From positions 1 to 24,511 of the IMG/VR virus record IMGVR_UViG_3300024320_000041: DNA of 24,511 nucleotides; one strand, written 5' to 3'. The translations under genes were made by a program, and so were the position numbers. The stretch is from a virus. Below, one piece after another: positions 2,162 to 13,821 of this stretch; position 1 is the stretch's first letter; every line of letters begins with the position of its first letter. The notes under the pieces are model-generated. The model did not search any database. It saw only the letters and a program-made list of their open reading frames with translations, and was not told where the DNA came from.

Positions 2162-2900
2162 TTATTTTTAATTAGCTTTCTCTCTAATTCGTTTTTCTCT
2201 TTTTCAAATGATAAATACATAAGACATTCATTTAAATTCATCCTAGTTATTTCATCAAACTTGGTAATATCTCCTTTACCAATTCCATAGATCGATTGAT
2301 ACCAACCCCATTTAGTTCCAAAATTTCTCTCTGTTGAGTAGTCAAGTTGCTCTGTGTTTTCTCCGTCAAATAATTCAGGGTAATTGTCAATAGTTCGCTG
2401 CTTAAATGATAAAAAAAAACAATAGATCCAAGTACAACATCTAATGGCATTGACTTTAAAACATCACTATATTTTGTGCCATCATAATCTTCTATGTTAT
2501 AAAGATCATTTTTTTCTTTTGTTACTGGTCTATATAGTACACTCATTGCTTTATGCATATTATCCCAATCACCAAAATAAGTATCTAAATCAATATATTC
2601 TCCTAATGTCATATCATCTAAATTAGGTATAAATCCAAAAGTGGTATCACCTAATACAAATCTATCTATTAGTTTTGTTTTACTATTAAATACACTATTG
2701 AGCTTCTCTGTGATCACTTGAACACTTGAGTATTTTATTTTTGCAATGTCCTTAAGATCTAGATTACAAAATATCTCTATCATTTTTTGCATTAGAAAGC
2801 TACTACCTTCATTTTCTTCAGTATTTAGCTTTGTAAATTTTTGATATTGACCAAGAGTAATTTCATTTAAAGACTCCGGTACAAGTATTTCTATCTTCAT
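2158..2900 (-). CDS. Tail assembly chaperone-like fusion made by -1 frameshift (long form)
   Basis: If ribosomes slip -1 on the T-run at 2411-2419, translation leaves the 0 frame after the two Phe codons and continues without a stop to TGA at 2158, giving about 247 residues. The -1 frame encodes a clearly protein-like segment, TKWGWYQSIYGIGKGDITKF, then a charged helix LSFEKEKNELERKLIKNK. I recall the same W-G-W-Y-Q and G-D-[IV]-T-K-F-[DE]-E type of ending in flavobacterial phage proteins. The -1 frame stop overlaps the next gene start as ATGA. This is the G/GT layout of tail assembly chaperones, where a minority long form binds the tape measure. A separate 27-residue ORF starting at 2241 in the same frame is an alternative, but would leave the conserved upstream part untranslated. 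Confidence 0.65.
2247..2900 (-). CDS. Tail assembly chaperone-like protein (short, 0-frame form)
   Basis: The 0 frame gives 217 residues from the ATG at 2900 (MKIEILVPESLNEITLGQY). An in-frame ATG at 2951 lies inside a terminator hairpin and is an unlikely start. Visible features are two copies of an [IM]TLGQY / MTLGEYIDLD type motif (about residues 14 and 97), a central acidic helix region, and an SIVFFYHLSSELL segment where the slippery site sits. The 0-frame ending (LNGVGINRSMELVKEIL) also looks like a conserved protein tail, so about 165 bases code in two frames. The gene lies downstream of terminase and upstream of tail-completion genes. I infer a tail assembly chaperone, with the T-run controlling the short:long ratio. 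Confidence 0.65.
   Translation of the reverse strand: MKIEILVPESLNEITLGQYQKFTKLNTEENEGSSFLMQKMIEIFCNLDLKDIAKIKYSSVQVITEKLNSVFNSKTKLIDRFVLGDTTFGFIPNLDDMTLGEYIDLDTYFGDWDNMHKAMSVLYRPVTKEKNDLYNIEDYDGTKYSDVLKSMPLDVVLGSIVFFYHLSSELLTITLNYLTEKTQSNLTTQQREILELNGVGINRSMELVKEILPSLMK
2410..2420 (-). other. Candidate -1 programmed frameshift slippery site
   Basis: On the minus strand the run is G followed by nine T then A. In the 0 frame it reads ATT GTT TTT TTT TAT CAT, which contains the heptamer T TTT TTT in the correct X XXY YYZ phase. After a -1 slip the next codons are TTA TCA TTT AAG, and the frame stays open to 2158. Transcriptional slippage to T10 would give the same product. I see no strong stem or pseudoknot just downstream. 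Confidence 0.65.
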
Positions 2901-2930
2901 ATATATATAATAATAAAAACACAAACGTGT

Positions 2931-2962
2931 ATAAAAAGAAAAAGGTAACATTTCTGCTACCT
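2931..2962 (-). terminator. Rho-independent terminator, GAAA-loop hairpin
   Basis: On the minus strand GGTAGCA-GAAA-TGTTACC (2961 to 2944) forms a 7-bp stem with one G-U pair and a GNRA tetraloop; an extra A-T pair flanks it. It is followed by TTTTCTTTTT. It lies just after the 76-residue gene that ends at 2995 and just before the tail-chaperone gene. The same 18-base core recurs at 21130-21147. Confidence 0.75.
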
Positions 2963-2994
2963 AATTCCAACTTAAAACAAACAAATATAACTAA

Positions 2995-3225
2995 CTAAAT
3001 AATATGTTTATCATGTAAATATCTATAAACCTTTTCAATTGCTTTTTCTAACTCACTTGAATTCTGTTGATACAAATCTTTTCCGTGAATATAATTGTAG
3101 TCTATTGATACTATAAGTTTTACCATTGGAGGTTTATTGTGTTGACCTCTACCTTGTGGCTGTTGAATTACCTTTATGTTTTTATCCCAACATTGTTGCA
3201 TTACTATATGATATGCTAAATCCAA
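2995..3225 (-). CDS. Hypothetical small phage protein
   Basis: A 76-residue protein read from a TTG at 3225, which overlaps the upstream gene by 10 bases. An ATG at 3201 (residue 9) is the alternative start and would leave a 14-base gap. I prefer the TTG because the DLAYHIVMQQCW segment looks like continuous protein sequence, but this is not certain. It has a basic middle (QQPQGRGQHNKPP) followed by a beta strand KLIVSIDYN and a C-terminal helix ELEKAIEKVYRYLHDK. No family with a known role is recognised. It is followed by a strong terminator. Confidence 0.6.
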   Translation of the reverse strand: MDLAYHIVMQQCWDKNIKVIQQPQGRGQHNKPPMVKLIVSIDYNYIHGKDLYQQNSSELEKAIEKVYRYLHDKHII

Positions 3226-3362
3226 CCTAAATCGTATCTTAAAAATAAAACTAAATATAAAAAACCATACATGCTACTATAAGCTAAAATGTTAAATAGT
3301 ATTGCATATATAATATTTTTTCTTGTAAATACTTCCTTTAATATTTTTAAATCTTCTTTCAT
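3216..3362 (-). CDS. Small single-pass membrane protein
   Basis: A 48-residue ORF from ATG at 3362 to TAG at 3216. A charged N-terminus (MKEDLKILKEVFTRKN) is followed by about 25 hydrophobic residues (IIYAILFNILAYSSMYGFLY and on), predicting one membrane helix, perhaps a hairpin of two short ones. It overlaps the following gene by 10 bases and begins about 20 bases after a terminator hairpin. It is unrecognised. The coding claim rests on the open frame, the overlap and the coherent membrane-protein composition. Confidence 0.5.
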   Translation of the reverse strand: MKEDLKILKEVFTRKNIIYAILFNILAYSSMYGFLYLVLFLRYDLGWI

Positions 3363-3382
3363 AATATAATTATTGGTTATAC

Positions 3383-3403
3383 AAAAGGGGAGTTGCCTCC
3401 CCC
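3383..3403 (-). terminator. Rho-independent terminator, GCAA-loop hairpin
   Basis: On the minus strand GGGGAG-GCAA-CTCCCC (3402 to 3387) is a perfect 6-bp GC-rich stem with a GNRA loop, followed by TTTTG. It sits immediately after the stop of the 59-residue gene at 3410. Confidence 0.75.
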
Positions 3404-3409
3404 TGTTTT

Positions 3410-3589
3410 TTAAGTTAATCTACTAATACTTGTTACGTGTATTCCTTGTTCTTCCCATAAAAGTTTTTTTGCATCGTGAACAGAAGATACGTTCTCAAGT
3501 ACTACAGTTAACCTCGCTCTTTCCTTGCTTGGTTGTCCTGTTGGATTAAAACTAATGTCAAATGTGTTTGTAATTGTTAATGTTTCCAT
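3410..3589 (-). CDS. Small hypothetical protein
   Basis: A 59-residue ORF from ATG at 3589 to TAA at 3410. It begins METLTITNTFDISFNPTGQP and ends with WEEQGIHVTSISRLT. It looks like a small alpha/beta domain: strand, strand (RLTVVLENV), helix (SVHDAKKLLWEEQ), strand (HVTSIS). It has its own transcription unit, with a promoter-like element at 3617-3647 upstream and a strong terminator at 3383-3403 downstream. Such isolation is unusual in this packed genome and suggests separate, possibly strong or early, expression. No function is recognised. Confidence 0.65.
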   Translation of the reverse strand: METLTITNTFDISFNPTGQPSKERARLTVVLENVSSVHDAKKLLWEEQGIHVTSISRLT

Positions 3590-3616
3590 TTGTATAATTG
3601 TTATTGTTTTACAATG

Positions 3617-3647
3617 CTAATATACAAAAAAAACTTTAATAAACAAA
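3617..3647 (-). promoter_or_regulatory. Bacteroidota-type promoter candidate
   Basis: The minus strand shows TTTG (3647-3644), a 19-base spacer, then TATATTAG (3624-3617), one mismatch from the TAnnTTTG -7 element known for Bacteroidota. The predicted start is about 25-30 bases before the ATG at 3589. It lies in the gap just after the large terminase gene. Confidence 0.55.
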
Positions 3648-3663
3648 TGTTTAACAAAAAATT

Positions 3664-4836
3664 TTAAAAAATGTGATATTCTCCTTTATGTGGATTCTCT
3701 AGAATAGAGCTAAGAATATATCTAGCAGCATCAATACAGTGATCACCACTTGTTGGATTTGGTTTTTGTAATGTGTTACCTTGTTTGTCTTGCATCCAAA
3801 TGTAGCCATTTAATTCTTTTATTAGATTCTTGCTTCGTTGTGTTACGTATATCTTATTTTGATTTATTAAGTTTATACCATACACTATTGAGTCTCTACC
3901 TTTACTTACTGGATATATTGGATGACCATAACTTAATAATTCTGCTATTGATTTAGGCTCAGCTGAATCTGCATATATTATTTCTTTTACTTGATTGTTA
4001 TTTAAGAATTGACTAATGTCACTATTTAACATTCCTTTCTTACTTAATACCTCATCAAATATATATGAATCATTATATTTATACAAAGCAACTAAAGTAC
4101 TTGGGTCTATGCTATAACCAAAGTCCATTCCATATCCTAATAGTCTTGCTTCTATTGGTACACTGTTTATACTTTTCCAATCTGGTATGCATACACCTTC
4201 TAGTGAACCTGTTTCACCAAGACCATATACTCTCCACCAATTAGACCAATAAGTTGATGTTTTAGCCTTATCTTTAGCTTTCTCTATTTCTGTTACAATT
4301 GACTCAGGTAACACGTCGTTGTCTTTATATGTCAATGTTATATAATCAACATCTTTTTGACCAAGTACCTCCTTGTCAACCCAGAATAAACTAGATGGGT
4401 TGTAGTCCAACCATATATTATCTGATGTTCTAACTACTAATTGATTATAAGCATCAAATGGTACATTATTACACTCATTAATATATAAGTCAGTTCGTCT
4501 TGCTCCTCTTAATTTATCTGGTTGATCTGTAGAAAAGAATTCAATGTAGCTACCATTAGTGAAAGTGTATTTTAAAGTGCTCTTATTGAATTGATTATCT
4601 TTATACCTATTTAATCCATTAAGAATAGAAAGAAAGTCCTTTAAAGCACCTCTACGAAGATGAGGTATTGATTCAGATACAATACTTATTTCTTTACCTT
4701 CATTTTTTATTGCATAATCTATTAAAATAAGTAAGATACAAATTGTTTTTCCAGCAGATGTTCCACCTCTTACAACTCGTATCCTCTTATTAAGATCTCG
4801 TAATTTACTTAATGCAATAGTTTTTTTAACTATCAT
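3664..4836 (-). CDS. terL: Terminase large subunit
   Basis: The 390-residue phage DNA-packaging motor. The N-terminal ATPase has a Walker A GGTSAGKT at 24-31 and a Walker B-like DLYINEC at 116-122 with the catalytic Glu at 121. A coupling-type LDYNPS motif follows at 143-148. The C-terminal RNase H-like nuclease has acidic residues in MDFGYSIDPST (Asp238), YADSAEP (Asp290) and DHCIDAARY (Asp365/Asp369). The size is slightly short for TerL but all motor and nuclease elements are present. It follows the small terminase-like gene with a one-base gap. It would cut concatemers and pump DNA through the portal encoded at 19000-20745. Confidence 0.93.
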   Translation of the reverse strand: MIVKKTIALSKLRDLNKRIRVVRGGTSAGKTICILLILIDYAIKNEGKEISIVSESIPHLRRGALKDFLSILNGLNRYKDNQFNKSTLKYTFTNGSYIEFFSTDQPDKLRGARRTDLYINECNNVPFDAYNQLVVRTSDNIWLDYNPSSLFWVDKEVLGQKDVDYITLTYKDNDVLPESIVTEIEKAKDKAKTSTYWSNWWRVYGLGETGSLEGVCIPDWKSINSVPIEARLLGYGMDFGYSIDPSTLVALYKYNDSYIFDEVLSKKGMLNSDISQFLNNNQVKEIIYADSAEPKSIAELLSYGHPIYPVSKGRDSIVYGINLINQNKIYVTQRSKNLIKELNGYIWMQDKQGNTLQKPNPTSGDHCIDAARYILSSILENPHKGEYHIF

Positions 4837-4837
4837 A

Positions 4838-5077
4838 TTAGTCTACAAACAACGGTAAATCTTCGTTGATAGTAATATCTTTAGTTTCTCTTGGTTTACC
4901 TGCATAGTAGTTATAAAACAATTGAACATATTTAAAATCTGCATGCTCTAATCCTTTTTTTAATGCATCAAATGCTAATGGTTCTAATGGAGTTAACTTT
5001 TCTATTAAAGCTATTTCTTCAGCCTTAGATTTTCTACCAGCTGATTTATGTCCTCCATTATTTTTTCTTCCATCCAT
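4838..5077 (-). CDS. Small terminase-like protein
   Basis: A 79-residue protein with a basic Gly/Lys/Arg-rich start (MDGRKNNGGHKSAGRKSKAE) and two helices (LIEKLTPLEPLAFDALKKGL and FKYVQLFYNYYAGKP), ending in an acidic tail (EDLPLFVD). The layout and its position directly before terL fit a minimal small terminase or DNA-recognition subunit; I recall similar short proteins upstream of terL in flavobacterial phages. No canonical full-length helix-turn-helix is obvious. The role as TerS is inferred from context. Confidence 0.65.
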   Translation of the reverse strand: MDGRKNNGGHKSAGRKSKAEEIALIEKLTPLEPLAFDALKKGLEHADFKYVQLFYNYYAGKPRETKDITINEDLPLFVD

Positions 5078-5127
5078 GATTTAAAAAACTTTATTATTAA
5101 TTATATAATAAAATAAAATCCAATCTG

Positions 5128-5586
5128 TTAACCAATAACATATCCATTATCTCTAAAAAACTTATCTCTACTCTTTAATTTAGTATTAGACTCTTTTAAT
5201 TGTTTTACTAATTCTTTATTAGTATTAACAAGAAGCTCATTTGCATTTTTAAGTTTTGCCCACTTATCAATGAAAGTTTCTTCTTTACTTATATTGTTTA
5301 AAGCTTCTTCTTTTAATGTTTCAATTTTACATTTTATATTTACATAAGAAGATCTTAACGTTACGTTTTGATTTGCCCAACTATCAAAGTGTTTTAATCC
5401 CCATAAAACAGTTGCGTGATCTCTATTTACTGATTTACCTATTTCAGTTAAAGATTTATATGTATATTCTCTACAAAGCTTATAATATAATGCTCTAGCT
5501 TCTACTATTTCTCTTTTACGTCTAATAGTGCTTATATCTATTTTAGTATCTTCTTTAACTAATTCTTGTATTACTTTAATCTCCAT
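5128..5586 (-). CDS. DnaA C-terminal (domain IV)-like DNA-binding protein
   Basis: A 152-residue protein. Residues about 24-70 match the DnaA domain IV helix-turn-helix: REIVEARALYYKLCREYTYK, then SLTEIGKSV, then the DnaA-box signature NRDHATVLWGLKH (54-66). Bacterial DnaA uses this domain to bind origin DnaA boxes. The AAA+ domain is absent, and the rest (about 85-145) is a predicted coiled coil. Likely roles are recognition of the phage origin, helicase recruitment, or interference with host DnaA. It overlaps the upstream small gene by 11 bases, within the exonuclease/MazG operon. Confidence 0.8.
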   Translation of the reverse strand: MEIKVIQELVKEDTKIDISTIRRKREIVEARALYYKLCREYTYKSLTEIGKSVNRDHATVLWGLKHFDSWANQNVTLRSSYVNIKCKIETLKEEALNNISKEETFIDKWAKLKNANELLVNTNKELVKQLKESNTKLKSRDKFFRDNGYVIG

Positions 5587-5806
5587 TTTTTATTATGTTT
5601 TTTATTTCTCTTAATGTTAAACTTTTACTTATTTCTAATGCTTTTAATATACCTGCACAAGCTTCATATTCTTCATTGTTCTCATAAAGCTTAATCGTAT
5701 CTTTTAGTTCATTTATTGATGCTCCGTTTACAATATCTAATAAAGCTAATAGATAATACTCTTTAATTATTTCTTTAGCTGAGAGTTCCCTGTATGACGT
5801 ATTCAT
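5576..5806 (-). CDS. Hypothetical small helical protein
   Basis: A 76-residue all-helical acidic protein (MNTSYRELSAKEIIKEYYLL, then INELKDTIKLYENNEEYEACAGILKALE). It overlaps the upstream exonuclease gene by 32 bases and the DnaA-like gene by 11, so it belongs to one coupled operon. No domain is recognised. It could be an accessory subunit of its neighbours, but nothing in the sequence shows this. Confidence 0.65.
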   Translation of the reverse strand: MNTSYRELSAKEIIKEYYLLALLDIVNGASINELKDTIKLYENNEEYEACAGILKALEISKSLTLREIKNIIKNGD

Positions 5807-6812
5807 TTATTTCTTCAGTTTGATCAACAAAATATTTTTGGAAAATTCTTAATCCATATTCTACTTTATCTTTACCTGAATTGTAAAAACTTTCTTCTAC
5901 ATCCCAAATACCTAGATCTCCTGATTTTTTATCTATAACAAAAAATTTAAAATCTTTATAATCTATTTTAAATAAATTACAATATATATAAACTTGAACA
6001 TCGTAACCATATCTCTTAGATGCCCATTCAAAACCTTTTAAATCAGCTGTTGTTTTTAAGTCTGCAATATAATCAAAACCTAAAACATCTGCTTTAGCTC
6101 TAAAAGGAAAACCATTAAGAATATCAAAAGCAGGTACTTCAAATTTAGCTCCACGTGTATATTGTTGCCATATATCATTTTGCAATAAAGCATCTACTGT
6201 ATACATAGCTCTGTCATATTCTTTTCTTGTATATACAAACTGAGCACTACCTACTTCAGCTACTTTTTCTTTATATTTTTTAGTCACTGCTGATTGTACT
6301 TCTACTACGTGACATAAAGTTTCTAATTTTTCAGGTTCTAATGCTGCTAAATGAATTAATCTACCAGTTTTAAATGCACTAGAATCAGAATGAAAATTTA
6401 AAGATCTTGCATAACTTTTTGGTGAATCTAATAATGATTTAATAGCTGAACTACTTAAAGCATATTTACCTAGTTCTCCATAGTAAAAGCTATCATCATA
6501 CATTTTCTTTATTAATTCTTCTTTATTCCAAACTTTACCATTTAATAACTGTATTTTTTCCATTCTTTCTTTGCTTTTTGTGTATATTGATTTCATTTCT
6601 GCTATTGGTACAAAACAACTATCAGGACCTTTCATCGAAGGAACTAAGTTTAATCTTAATGCTTCTAATTCCTGCTGAGTTTTAAATTCATAGTTGTTAT
6701 CGTCAATTATAATATTTATTCCACCTTGCTTAATTGCCCAATCTAAAAAATTAATTTTAGGTGTTTTAAAGGTTATATGTTTCCAATTAGGATTTTTGAT
6801 TACATCTATCAT
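5775..6812 (-). CDS. PD-(D/E)XK exonuclease (RecB/RecE-type)
   Basis: A 345-residue protein. Residues about 118-330 carry the PD-(D/E)XK exonuclease pattern: LSSSAIKSLLDSPKSYA, then a TGRLIHLAALEPE helix with His154, then FRAKADVLGFDYIADLKTT with Asp242, Asp251 and Lys253 as the D...DxK metal site, then YDVQVYIY with Gln273. Phage members (exonuclease VIII-like) resect DNA ends to give single strands for an annealing protein, here the ERF protein at 13285-13821. The N-terminal about 110 residues are extra and unrecognised. The start overlaps the MazG stop by one base. Confidence 0.82.
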   Translation of the reverse strand: MIDVIKNPNWKHITFKTPKINFLDWAIKQGGINIIIDDNNYEFKTQQELEALRLNLVPSMKGPDSCFVPIAEMKSIYTKSKERMEKIQLLNGKVWNKEELIKKMYDDSFYYGELGKYALSSSAIKSLLDSPKSYARSLNFHSDSSAFKTGRLIHLAALEPEKLETLCHVVEVQSAVTKKYKEKVAEVGSAQFVYTRKEYDRAMYTVDALLQNDIWQQYTRGAKFEVPAFDILNGFPFRAKADVLGFDYIADLKTTADLKGFEWASKRYGYDVQVYIYCNLFKIDYKDFKFFVIDKKSGDLGIWDVEESFYNSGKDKVEYGLRIFQKYFVDQTEEINEYVIQGTLS

Positions 6813-7114
6813 TATTTATCTTTTACAAAGGTTCCATTTTCCATTCTACCTGTTCTATCTTTTATTTCTGAATAAGCAGATTCAATACAACCTTCTATAC
6901 TTAAATTACAAAGATAAGCTAAATTAGTTAAAACTACTACACAATCTCCAATAGCATCTTCTATTTCTAATCTATCTTTTTTTAATATTGCTTGAGCTAA
7001 TTCACCTGCTTCTTCCATTAATTTAAGATACTGTGTTTTTGGATCACCATTATCTAGTATTCCTTTATCTTTTGCCCAATCTCTAATAGGCTCAAATTCA
7101 TTGTTTAAAATCAT
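6812..7114 (-). CDS. MazG-like nucleotide pyrophosphohydrolase
   Basis: A 100-residue all-alpha NTP pyrophosphatase. The metal-binding motifs are KLMEEAGELAQA (Glu34, Glu35, Glu38) and EIEDAIGDCVVVL (Glu52, Asp53, Asp57), in the order and spacing of MazG. The family hydrolyses (d)NTPs to (d)NMP and PPi, and in phages is proposed to lower ppGpp or cleanse the nucleotide pool. Near a dCMP hydroxymethylase it could also remove dCTP, as T4 gp56 (related fold) does; that is inference. It is coupled by ATGA to the upstream 86-residue gene. Confidence 0.85.
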   Translation of the reverse strand: MILNNEFEPIRDWAKDKGILDNGDPKTQYLKLMEEAGELAQAILKKDRLEIEDAIGDCVVVLTNLAYLCNLSIEGCIESAYSEIKDRTGRMENGTFVKDK

Positions 7115-7371
7115 AATGTAGTTATATTTTTAGGGTTAAAATTAGAACGACCACACATAGGATATAATCTTGTATGATAAGATTCACCTTTACGTATACG
7201 TTTGTTTTTGAAAATAATATCTTCAGTTGCTACATGATCTTGTCTACCGTAGTAACCAATAATTTCTCTGTCAGCTTTTTCTAGATTTATAGAACCAATA
7301 TATTTATTGCCTTGCATATACTCTACAAAGTAACCAATGTGATCGTATTCTATTCCGTGTAATATATTCAT
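7111..7371 (-). CDS. Hypothetical phage protein
   Basis: An 86-residue, basic, mostly beta protein (MNILHGIEYDHIGYFVEYMQ, later HTRLYPMCGRSNFNPKN). No known family is recognised. It is the first gene after a promoter-like box at 7397-7404 and ends in an ATGA overlap with MazG, so it likely opens the 7371-5128 operon. Confidence 0.65.
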   Translation of the reverse strand: MNILHGIEYDHIGYFVEYMQGNKYIGSINLEKADREIIGYYGRQDHVATEDIIFKNKRIRKGESYHTRLYPMCGRSNFNPKNITTL

Positions 7372-7426: not shown

Positions 7427-8071
7427 TTATTTTTGCATTTTATTATAGTGTCGTTTGTAAATATGTAAATTTTGAGCAAAATGAGTATAAAAACCTTGAT
7501 CAACATTTAATGCATTACACACTAGTTTATGTAACTTTAAAAAACAATAAGCATCATTACAAAATCCAAACCATAAATCATTTGATCTCATTATAACAGT
7601 CATGTGTAGCTTTTCTGAATCAGGTGTAAAGTAAAATTGAATGTTTAAAGTACATGGGGTATCTTTTGAATACAAATCATGTTCTTTAGCATCATATATA
7701 GTTATAACAGATCTTCTTGAGTACTTATCTCTTTTTAATTCATTTATAGCATAAGTTAATTGATCTTCTCTATCCCATTGGTAACCATAGTTTGAATTAA
7801 CATAGCCACGTTCGTCCATATGATTATACCATATTTTAGCAACTTTAGCTATTTCTTTAGCTGATCTATCTTTAGATAAATACCATTCCCATTCTTTTTC
7901 AGCATAATCTATCTTAAAGTTTCTCCAAGATGTTTTTACCACATGATCACTTGTGTCTGTAATAGTAAAAGATTGATTGTAAAAAGATTTTGTTCCATTA
8001 TTATCTAGTTGACTATCTAACTTTTCATAATAATATTCAAATGCTTCTGTTACTGTTTTAAATTGCCACAT
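7427..8071 (-). CDS. dCMP hydroxymethylase (thymidylate synthase fold)
   Basis: A 214-residue ThyA-fold protein. The landmarks appear in order: EWEWYLSK (60-67), VNSNYGYQW (91-99), the phosphate-binding SRRSVITIYD (118-127), the catalytic Cys in TPCTLNIQF (Cys140), MRSNDLWFGFCND (161-173) and HFAQNLHIYKRHY. Two details favour dCMP hydroxymethylase over thymidylate synthase. The catalytic Cys is followed by Thr, as I recall in T4 gp42 (MCTN), not by His. With the Gly of FGF aligned, Asp173 falls at the TS Asn177 position, replaced by Asp in T4 gp42 (FGFRND, from memory). The product would be 5-hydroxymethyl-dCMP using methylene-tetrahydrofolate. It lies two genes after a beta-glucosyltransferase. 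A thymidylate synthase remains the alternative. Confidence 0.82.
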   Translation of the reverse strand: MWQFKTVTEAFEYYYEKLDSQLDNNGTKSFYNQSFTITDTSDHVVKTSWRNFKIDYAEKEWEWYLSKDRSAKEIAKVAKIWYNHMDERGYVNSNYGYQWDREDQLTYAINELKRDKYSRRSVITIYDAKEHDLYSKDTPCTLNIQFYFTPDSEKLHMTVIMRSNDLWFGFCNDAYCFLKLHKLVCNALNVDQGFYTHFAQNLHIYKRHYNKMQK

Positions 8072-8217
8072 ATATTTTCTTTTCTTATTGGGTATTTATA
8101 GTTATCTTGTTCAAATATATAAACTATTACGCCATCATGCAAAGTTTTTTTTCCAATATACTTTCCTTTCATTGTTTGACCAGCAAATCTAAATTGCCAT
8201 AATTCTCCTATATTCAT
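8050..8217 (-). CDS. Small SH3-like/beta hypothetical protein
   Basis: A 55-residue ORF from ATG at 8217 to TAA at 8050. It overlaps the glucosyltransferase end by 29 bases and the hydroxymethylase start by 22. The sequence (MNIGELWQFRFAGQTMKGKY, then strands KTLHDGVIVYIF and YKYPIRKENI) alternates short strands as in small beta-barrel domains. Its position between two modification genes makes it part of the same operon, but no role can be assigned. Confidence 0.6.
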   Translation of the reverse strand: MNIGELWQFRFAGQTMKGKYIGKKTLHDGVIVYIFEQDNYKYPIRKENICGNLKQ

Positions 8218-9160
8218 CGTGTTGTCTTTTTATTAAATCTTCACTATAATTATTTACTAACTTTAGCACATCTTCTTTACTTTGAATATATAATAAGTCT
8301 CTTAATACATTATCTTTTATTAATTCTTTATTAGGATCAAAGCTTAAAGGTATAGCAGCTAAACAGTTAGAAGCTAATGTCTCATAAAATCTAAATGTTA
8401 CTACATTATTTTCGTGTTCTTTGTCTGCTAAAACAAGACTTACTTTGCATTGATTTAACATATCCATTAAGTCTTTATGTTTTAATTTTTTTATAAATGG
8501 AATATCTATCTTATTGGATCTATAACCTATAAAAAGATTAGAATCAGATAAAGGCATATATTTTCTTAATTGTGATTCTCTATAGCTACCTCTTCTATCT
8601 CCATAATAAACTACATCATGTTGTTTAAATGCATGTATAAATTTTGGGTTTGGAATTTTTGTTTTAAATATTCCTTTGAAATAATTAAAATAAGTAAATT
8701 CATTATATTTAGTGTCATTATAAAATTTATTAAGATCTTTACCTGGAAACAAATAAACAGCTCTAGATAATAACTCATCAAACTTTTTTACATTTTCTTC
8801 ACTTATTATAGGCCATCTATCATTTACAGCTTTTGCAGCATTGATTGGTTTTATTCTTGGATCATTACAAAGAATAGCTATTTTATTTTTATAATCACAA
8901 AGCTTAGTTATTTTTTCAACTACATCATCTCCAATAACTCCACCAAAAAAATTAGGTTGAGACAATGATAATAGTATCTTATCAAAGCTATTTAAATCAA
9001 CATCTCTTATATCAATATACTTTTTCTCATGTTTATTGGTTCTACCACTTTTACCAATATAAAATAAATCATATTTATTAGATAAATAGGTAGCTTCTAA
9101 TCCACTGTGATTATTTGCTTTACATTGTATATTATTAAAAATACTAATTATTGCTTTCAT
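8189..9160 (-). CDS. DNA beta-glucosyltransferase (T4 BGT-like, GT-B)
   Basis: A 323-residue protein collinear with my recollection of T4 beta-glucosyltransferase (351 residues). Matches in order: DVDLNSFDKILLSLSQPNFFGG (about 53-74; T4 has DVNDYD...INFFGG); LCNDPRIKP with Asp100 at the place of the T4 catalytic Asp100; YYGDRRGSYRESQ (185-197) with Arg190 and Arg194 like the UDP-binding Arg pair; and LADKEHENNVVTFRFYETLASN (about 244-265) with Arg257 and Glu260 like the T4 LRVWETMAS site. The T4 enzyme transfers glucose from UDP-glucose to 5-hydroxymethylcytosine in DNA. The adjacent hydroxymethylase supports the same substrate here, though the sugar donor could differ. Confidence 0.85.
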   Translation of the reverse strand: MKAIISIFNNIQCKANNHSGLEATYLSNKYDLFYIGKSGRTNKHEKKYIDIRDVDLNSFDKILLSLSQPNFFGGVIGDDVVEKITKLCDYKNKIAILCNDPRIKPINAAKAVNDRWPIISEENVKKFDELLSRAVYLFPGKDLNKFYNDTKYNEFTYFNYFKGIFKTKIPNPKFIHAFKQHDVVYYGDRRGSYRESQLRKYMPLSDSNLFIGYRSNKIDIPFIKKLKHKDLMDMLNQCKVSLVLADKEHENNVVTFRFYETLASNCLAAIPLSFDPNKELIKDNVLRDLLYIQSKEDVLKLVNNYSEDLIKRQHDEYRRIMAI

Positions 9161-9410
9161 TGTAATTATTTAATGATCCTAAATATGCTACTGCATCTAA
9201 TAAATTATCTTCTTTATGATTATAAGACTGTCTAGATAGTTTTAAAGCTACAAGACACATATACATATCTTGTGGTGTAATTGTTTTACCTGTAGCACCT
9301 GAAGCTATCATTGCTGCTCTTTCCATACCTTCATTAAAAGGTCCATACATTCTTTCTTTTTCTTCTGATCTTTCATTTATGATCTTATTTGCTTTGTCTA
9401 ATATATTCAT
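9144..9410 (-). CDS. DUF6378-like small protein, possible NTP-pyrophosphatase fold
   Basis: An 88-residue helical protein with the pattern I associate with DUF6378: EEKERMYGPFNEGMERAA (16-33), then GKTITPQDMYMCLVALKLSR (41-60), then HKEDNLLDAVAYLGSL (65-80). The D-N-x-x-D-x-x-x-Y ending resembles the second metal motif of MazG-like all-alpha NTP pyrophosphatases, so a nucleotide-clearing role is possible but unproven. It overlaps the beta-glucosyltransferase start by 17 bases and is coupled by ATGA to the upstream gene. It is therefore co-translated with the DNA modification genes. Confidence 0.65.
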   Translation of the reverse strand: MNILDKANKIINERSEEKERMYGPFNEGMERAAMIASGATGKTITPQDMYMCLVALKLSRQSYNHKEDNLLDAVAYLGSLNNYNESNN

Positions 9411-13284: not shown

Positions 13285-13821
13285 TTATTTATTTAATAAT
13301 TGTTCAACTTCTTTTTCTATTTTGTATTTACTTTTAATATTATCTAAACTACCACCATCTGCAATATACTGTTTAGCTTTTGTAAAGGCTTCTGAATTTT
13401 TTGATAATGTTGGTTTATCAACTTTTAAGTTTGAATTTACCTTATTTAAACCTTTTCCACCAGCTATATTAGCATCATCATCTACAGCTTGTAAACCAAG
13501 AAGTGAAGCCAAAGTATATCTTCTATAATATGTAATAGCAGAACCTAGCTTTTGTGGGTCATTTATTTCGGGTAGTTTTAAAGCTGATATAACACCTCCT
13601 GTTCCATCTACACAAATTAATTTACTATAGACCATATCTTCTTCTATTGGTTGTAACAATAAAAGTCTATGTTTTTTTAATAAAGGCTGTAATTGTTTTA
13701 TTAGTGAATTTATATCAAAGTATTTTGACTTGTAAAAAGGGTTTTTAGTGTCTTTACTAACAGTACCTATTTCCTGTTGTAATTCGAAAAGTTTTAAATT
13801 AATTGTTTTGTCTTTGCTCAT
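13285..13821 (-). CDS. erf: ERF-family single-strand annealing protein
   Basis: A 178-residue recombinase. The ERF signature is clear: FYKSKYFDINSLIKQLQPLL (29-48), then ISALKLPEINDPQKLGSAITYYRRYTLASLLGLQAVDDDAN (about 78-118), whose GSAITYYRRY-LASLLGL-DDDA core defines the family. The C-terminal 55 residues are a Lys-rich linker and a helical domain. ERF proteins anneal complementary strands in phage recombination, partnered here by the exonuclease at 5775-6812 and the OB protein immediately downstream. Confidence 0.88.
   Translation of the reverse strand: MSKDKTINLKLFELQQEIGTVSKDTKNPFYKSKYFDINSLIKQLQPLLKKHRLLLLQPIEEDMVYSKLICVDGTGGVISALKLPEINDPQKLGSAITYYRRYTLASLLGLQAVDDDANIAGGKGLNKVNSNLKVDKPTLSKNSEAFTKAKQYIADGGSLDNIKSKYKIEKEVEQLLNK

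Follow-up and report, generated by a model that had tools for sequence, protein, structure and literature searches.

The window, the whole 24,511-base IMG/VR virus record IMGVR_UViG_3300024320_000041, which is linear and possibly a fragment, very probably encodes a two-step pathway that would armor phage DNA with glucosylated 5-hydroxymethylcytosine (5hmC), with the first step held constant in related phages and the gene for the second step exchanged. The window cassette alone is a further example of a known gene pair. What is new is that, in many samples, a constant hydroxymethylase is accompanied by a slot whose gene is exchanged. The features of the window are collected in Table 1.

Table 1. 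Features of the window, with strand and the basis for each assignment
Feature	Positions	Strand	Basis
Small protein with DnaA domain IV-like helix-turn-helix	5128-5586		Pfam Bac_DnaA_C, 3.8e-14
Exonuclease VIII-like (DUF3799, PDDEXK) protein	5775-6812	-	Pfam, 3e-19; PHROG exonuclease VIII, 1.1e-24
MazG-type NTP pyrophosphohydrolase	6812-7114	-	Pfam MazG, 7.1e-7; relatives in 76/84 loci
Conserved 86-residue protein adjoining the hydroxymethylase	7111-7371	-	Relatives in 54/84 loci
Predicted dCMP 5-hydroxymethylase, ThyA fold, 214 residues	7427-8071	-	T4 dCMP hydroxymethylase is the nearest solved structure
55-residue ORF overlapping both neighbors	8050-8217	-	Relatives in 48/84 loci at E 1e-3
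Predicted DNA beta-glucosyltransferase, 323 residues, variable-slot occupant	8189-9160	-	Homology to T4 BGT
DUF6378 protein, forming the constant border upstream of the slot	9144-9410	-	Pfam DUF6378, 8.1e-13; relatives in 64/84 loci
Erf-type single-strand annealing protein	13285-13821	-	Pfam ERF, 4.6e-20

The hydroxymethylase and glucosyltransferase

The 214-residue ThyA-like protein matches the Pfam Thymidylat_synt family at 8.5e-27. When this single sequence was searched against the PDB, T4 dCMP hydroxymethylase was returned at 1.1e-15, the best thymidylate synthase at 2.6e-11 and MilA at 5.6e-7. A profile of 18 hydroxymethylase relatives yielded MilA at 2.4e-28, the T4 enzyme at 1.6e-26 and thymidylate synthases from 1.8e-24, an order that correctly places the cytosine hydroxymethylases above the thymidylate synthases with a modest margin. 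The active-site residues are more telling than these ranks. Residues C140, D173, E60, S93, Y95 and R119/R120 correspond to C148, D179, E60, S94, Y96 and R123/R124, respectively, in the T4 protein; T4 D145 lands in an alignment gap, and every catalytic or specificity residue that can be aligned agrees. The roles of Glu60, Ser94, Tyr96, Arg123/124 and the catalytic Cys in the T4 enzyme have been described, and D179 is the determinant of dCMP over dUMP in that protein such that the D179N variant is nearly inactive (PMC6400193). The position that is Asn177 in thymidylate synthase (E. coli numbering) is Asp in the window protein and in all 82 of the 82 relatives that cover the site. Thus, the claim of a sequence-only reading that the protein has a ThyA fold with dCMP-hydroxymethylase hallmarks is borne out, and a check of the specificity position that was set beforehand placed Asp173, and not Asn172, opposite T4 D179. 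These residues support the prediction that the protein is a cytosine, rather than a uracil, hydroxymethylase.

The T4 beta-glucosyltransferase (BGT) was the sole match when the 323-residue protein alone was searched against the PDB (3.8e-12), and the family profile aligned with T4 BGT at 4.4e-51 across residues 1-333 of 351. A PHROG beta-glucosyltransferase match (4.2e-16) spanned residues 3-308 of the window protein, and the single sequence scored 24.0 bits with Pfam T4-Gluco-transf, slightly under the curated cut-off of 27 bits. Residues D100, R190, R194, R257 and E260 align with catalytic Asp100 and with the UDP-site residues Arg191, Arg195, Arg269 and Glu272 of T4 BGT, and all five are invariant among 18 members of the family. 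The profile alignment and the residue map therefore agree with the earlier description of a full-length relative of T4 BGT with its active-site residues in place: the protein is a full-length homolog with an intact active site and is predicted to be a transferase. As judged from these sequences, glucosylated 5hmC is the best reading of the gene pair.

In the proposed pathway, the ThyA-like enzyme would convert dCMP to 5-hydroxymethyl-dCMP using methylene-tetrahydrofolate, with Cys140 attacking C6 and Asp173 recognizing and protonating cytosine N3. The MazG-type protein, which may be the enzyme that removes dCTP, and perhaps the DUF6378 protein too, would supply dCMP through dCTP hydrolysis. 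Hydroxymethyl-dCMP would be phosphorylated and then incorporated, probably via the host replisome; neither a kinase for this nucleotide nor a proven dCTPase was identified in the window gene set. The BGT homolog would move glucose from host UDP-glucose onto 5hmC in DNA in beta linkage, and the beta-glucosylated DNA would block nucleases that recognize cytosine as well as those specific for hydroxymethylcytosine (hmC). We infer that cytosine in the phage DNA would be replaced, partly or fully.

The smaller proteins around the pair are less readily placed. The 55-residue ORF overlaps the ThyA-like gene by 22 nt and the BGT-like gene by 29 nt, and an overlap with both had been noted in the sequence-only reading. 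All three ORFs are on the minus strand at the coordinates given (Table 1). The 55-residue ORF had no family match in Pfam or PHROG searches, and the presence of relatives in other loci (Table 1) argues that it is a real gene. The 86-residue protein was without a match in Pfam. The DUF6378 protein is a possible nucleotide-pool enzyme. Its predicted structure is a confident four-helix model (pLDDT 89.5) for which PDB structure searches gave no informative match, and no profile match to the neighboring MazG family was obtained; it may be a MazG-like all-alpha NTP pyrophosphatase or dCTPase.

The phage and its host

The terminase of the window is of the Terminase_3 type and the portal protein belongs to a non-T4 family, which places the phage outside the Tevenvirinae by its packaging and structural genes. 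The closest terminase sequences are those of Flavobacterium psychrophilum phages (52%), which are 42 kb in size. The earlier characterization of a small phage of flavobacterial type is consistent with these terminases, and the accompanying claim that the gene set is not that of T4 holds for the portal and terminase. The host probably is a Bacteroidetes bacterium. Genome contigs did not decide the host, as the relatives that were found had only ~44-48% identity and were in mixed MAGs of several lineages (Saprospiraceae, Flavobacteriaceae, Aliivibrio, Halieaceae and others). A family-A DNA polymerase, the only polymerase family sought, was absent from the window and from 15 related records, most of which exceed 30 kb; host-dependent replication is probable on this basis. 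A DUF3127 SSB-like protein also is encoded in the window, as assessed by Pfam and PHROG searches.

A variable slot beside a constant hydroxymethylase

A search of viral contigs with the BGT query produced a single near-identical locus. The family instead emerged from the hydroxymethylase query, which returned 80 loci; gene-content counts were made over 84 loci. The recurring order of the block is DUF6378, slot, 55-residue ORF, hydroxymethylase, 86-residue protein and MazG. Thus, the flanking genes are constant and the transferase position changes, a feature that lies beyond the coordinates and claims of the sequence-only reading. Among the 74 labeled loci, the window included, the slot is occupied by a BGT-like gene in 35 and by a gene of the Pfam AGT family, which resembles T4 alpha-glucosyltransferase (PHROG alpha-glucosyltransferase, 8.9e-80), in 13. 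The remaining occupants are phrog_14998, an uncharacterized family with a predicted GT-B fold (15/74), a 440-residue candidate protein (3/74) and a trio that includes a PLP-dependent enzyme (8/74; loci L067-L074). Across these related phages the hydroxymethylation module is fixed and the tailoring slot is exchangeable, as read from gene content.

The exchange is most evident in five pairs of contigs that have long near-identical flanks and different slot genes. In L007 and L009, which carry BGT and AGT genes, respectively, the flanks are 99.2% identical downstream and 97.1% identical upstream; homology stops at the stop codon of DUF6378 and restarts no more than ~45 nt before the transferase gene ends. 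The L036/L066 pair also combines BGT with AGT, and here homology restarts at the start of the hydroxymethylase gene. The L019/L020 pair (440-residue protein and BGT) shows 98.5% identity downstream and 93.1% upstream, L031/L034 carry AGT and phrog_14998, and L040/L043 carry AGT and BGT with a match in the downstream flank only. The closest relative of the window, L005, whose hydroxymethylase is 94% identical and whose DNA is 88% identical over 3.7 kb, has phrog_14998 and UDP-galactopyranose mutase genes in place of that for BGT.

When slot content was mapped on a hydroxymethylase tree, about 21 changes were needed compared to a minimum of 4. The value is an estimate, as the set includes near-duplicate loci and the tree was built quickly, with weak support at many forks. 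In three sets, hydroxymethylases that are identical are accompanied by differing transferases, and the five near-identical pairs hold independently of the tree. The second-step gene was swapped repeatedly at a single site, which is bordered by DUF6378 on one side and by the 55-residue ORF/hydroxymethylase on the other, plausibly through homologous recombination via the conserved flanks. The Erf-type annealing protein is a possible agent of this exchange, given its presence in the phage.

Further slot occupants

The predicted fold of a phrog_14998 member (mean pLDDT 69) had T4 BGT as its top structural match (Z 15.8, rmsd 4.3, 292 residues), which suggests that the family probably is a GT-B glycosyltransferase. 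Profile comparison provided no sequence link to BGT or AGT, and the family was rejected as a sequence homolog of either, the predicted GT-B fold being the only connection. The 440-residue protein also was rejected as a BGT/AGT sequence homolog: its profile comparison was weak and a PDB search was without a match. Relatives of phrog_14998 were found in T4-like phages of Aeromonas; the match in Erwinia phage FBB1 overlaps a gene that is annotated as UDP-galactopyranose mutase. In a single locus, L005 (positions 2861-4868), the phrog_14998 transferase gene is followed by one for UDP-galactopyranose mutase, an association that suggests galactofuranose as the donor sugar. An FkbM-type methyltransferase that possibly methylates the sugar precedes phrog_14998 in the slot of one other locus, L034 (3205-3855).

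The slot in L067-L074 (for example, L067:2486-4998) specifies a PLP-dependent (PALP) enzyme, a 303-residue protein without a family match and a member of the uncharacterized family phrog_13881; no recognizable glycosyltransferase was found within it. As the hydroxymethylase in these loci keeps the Asp residue, a non-sugar modification of hmC is possible. A coupling between slot content and the specificity residue, with Asn accompanying thymidine-type hypermodification genes, was discarded for the same reason. Galactofuranosyl and PLP-linked decorations of hmC are treated as leads.

Among 1726 ORFs, 14 had QxxLF-like C-termini, every one of them a slot enzyme (the transferases of L011, L012, L016, L019, L020, L026, L028, L035, L045-L047, L062, L063 and L066). 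The tail resembles the bacterial sliding-clamp motif, and T4 alpha-GT is known to bind the clamp gp45 (PMC13216743). The motif was rejected as a common feature of slot enzymes, as the tail often overlaps the frame of the 55-residue ORF and the window BGT is without it; its occurrence in some of these enzymes is a lead from sequence. Upstream of BGT in L057 (3442-4068), with kin in L059 and L060, DUF6378 is replaced by a fusion protein with a nucleotidyltransferase domain that resembles heptose-1-phosphate adenylyltransferase or glycerol-3-phosphate cytidylyltransferase. Bacteroides phage BF503P2 (L002) has two ThyA-fold proteins annotated as deoxycytidylate 5-hydroxymethyltransferase (5109-5915 and 7989-8669); a transferase adjoining them was sought and no relative of the slot transferases was found nearby.

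Comparison with known systems

Both homologs were located together by tblastn against 50,697 phage records in the Enterococcus siphophages VPE25, VFW, nattely, vipetofem and others. The DNA of VPE25 and VFW is protected from bisulfite, resistant to MspI and cut by PvuRts1I, from which glucosylated cytosine was deduced (PMC4999554). By analogy, these data are the best experimental support for the function of the window pair, and they are a published precedent by which the pair is not novel outside T4-like phages. As in the window, the two genes are close together in non-T4 phages, and the VPE25 hydroxymethylase homolog carries the same specificity Asp as D173. However, VPE25 and VFW are ~85 kb phages of Firmicutes, protein identity to the window is only 38% and 26%, and the gene pair is separated by a dUTPase gene instead of the 55-residue ORF. 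Moreover, slot exchange is without description in these phages, unlike in the relatives of the window. No published description of exchange at one locus in non-T4 phages was found in a literature search confined to open-licence papers.

The window pair resembles T4 gp42 and BGT in active-site residues and predicted chemistry. In contrast to the window phage, T4 is a myovirus of 169 kb that encodes a polymerase, a dCTPase and a kinase of its own, and its portal and terminase differ. Decoration of 5hmC also varies between related phages of the Tevenvirinae (alpha-GT, beta-GT or arabinosylation), most of which have either alpha-GT or beta-GT and rarely both (PMC13216743; PMC8056088). That the two seldom occur in one phage is consistent with their being alternatives (PMC13216743). 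Whereas the alpha-gt and beta-gt genes of T4 have separate native positions (PMC13216743), the enzyme types in the window group alternate at one position in small phages that otherwise are near-identical.

Alternative explanations

The ThyA-like protein might belong to the thymidylate synthases or to the dUMP hydroxymethylases; the modified base then would be T or 5hmU, with 5hmU as the substrate of the transferase. The fold itself, the annotation of the Enterococcus relatives as 'thymidylate synthase' and an NCBIfam search in which thymidylate synthase models were the only matches, all far under their cut-offs, fit this proposal. It nevertheless is improbable in view of the invariant Asp and the near inactivity of T4 D179N on dCMP, the cytosine hydroxymethylases as nearest structures and the presence of both BGT- and AGT-type 5hmC enzymes beside the hydroxymethylase. 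A MilA-like enzyme that acts on CMP to serve a small molecule and has no connection with DNA has a still smaller probability, the lowest that we assign: MilA tops the profile search, level with T4 dCMP hydroxymethylase, but the single-sequence search favors the T4 enzyme and the link with DNA glucosyltransferase families in phages is constant. A dCMP hydroxymethylase that acts with a DNA glucosyltransferase is the preferred interpretation.

The alternating slot could reflect misassembly of mixed phage populations, to which near-identical strains are prone, and the contigs all are metagenomic. This explanation is very improbable because the paired contigs derive from different metagenomes, the BGT, AGT, phrog_14998 and 440-residue occupants each recur beside the same flanks in several samples, and the exchange points coincide with gene borders. 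Ordinary phage mosaicism without selection on DNA decoration is a more substantial proposal, albeit an unlikely one. Gene exchange is widespread in phages, and the pair comparison covers the slot and flanks rather than genome-wide turnover. However, the slot is the main break within several kilobases of alignment in near-identical pairs, and transferases suited to one and the same acceptor, 5hmC, make up most of its occupants. Selection by linkage-specific defenses plausibly underlies the exchange. Brig1 attacks alpha- but not beta-glucosyl-hmC and is escaped by arabinosylation, whereas GmrSD attacks both glucosyl stereoisomers (PMC13216743). A swapped transferase would alter the DNA decoration and so permit escape from decoration-specific defenses such as Brig1.

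Significance

Small uncultured phages that form a recurrent group are thereby added to the phages with predicted 5hmC glycosylation. Tentatively, and with slightly less than even confidence, we suggest that these phages combine a fixed hmC module with a tailoring locus akin to a serotype switch that specifies beta- or alpha-glucosyl groups, a further sugar that possibly is galactofuranose, or a non-sugar group, driven by decoration-specific defenses. Two candidate new hmC chemistries are indicated, one by phrog_14998 with UDP-galactopyranose mutase and the other by the PLP-enzyme trio. The natural near-isogenic pairs differ mainly in the DNA-sugar enzyme and make the relationship testable between the type of decoration and the defenses that are survived, including alpha-specific Brig1, GmrSD-type type IV enzymes, restriction and CRISPR.
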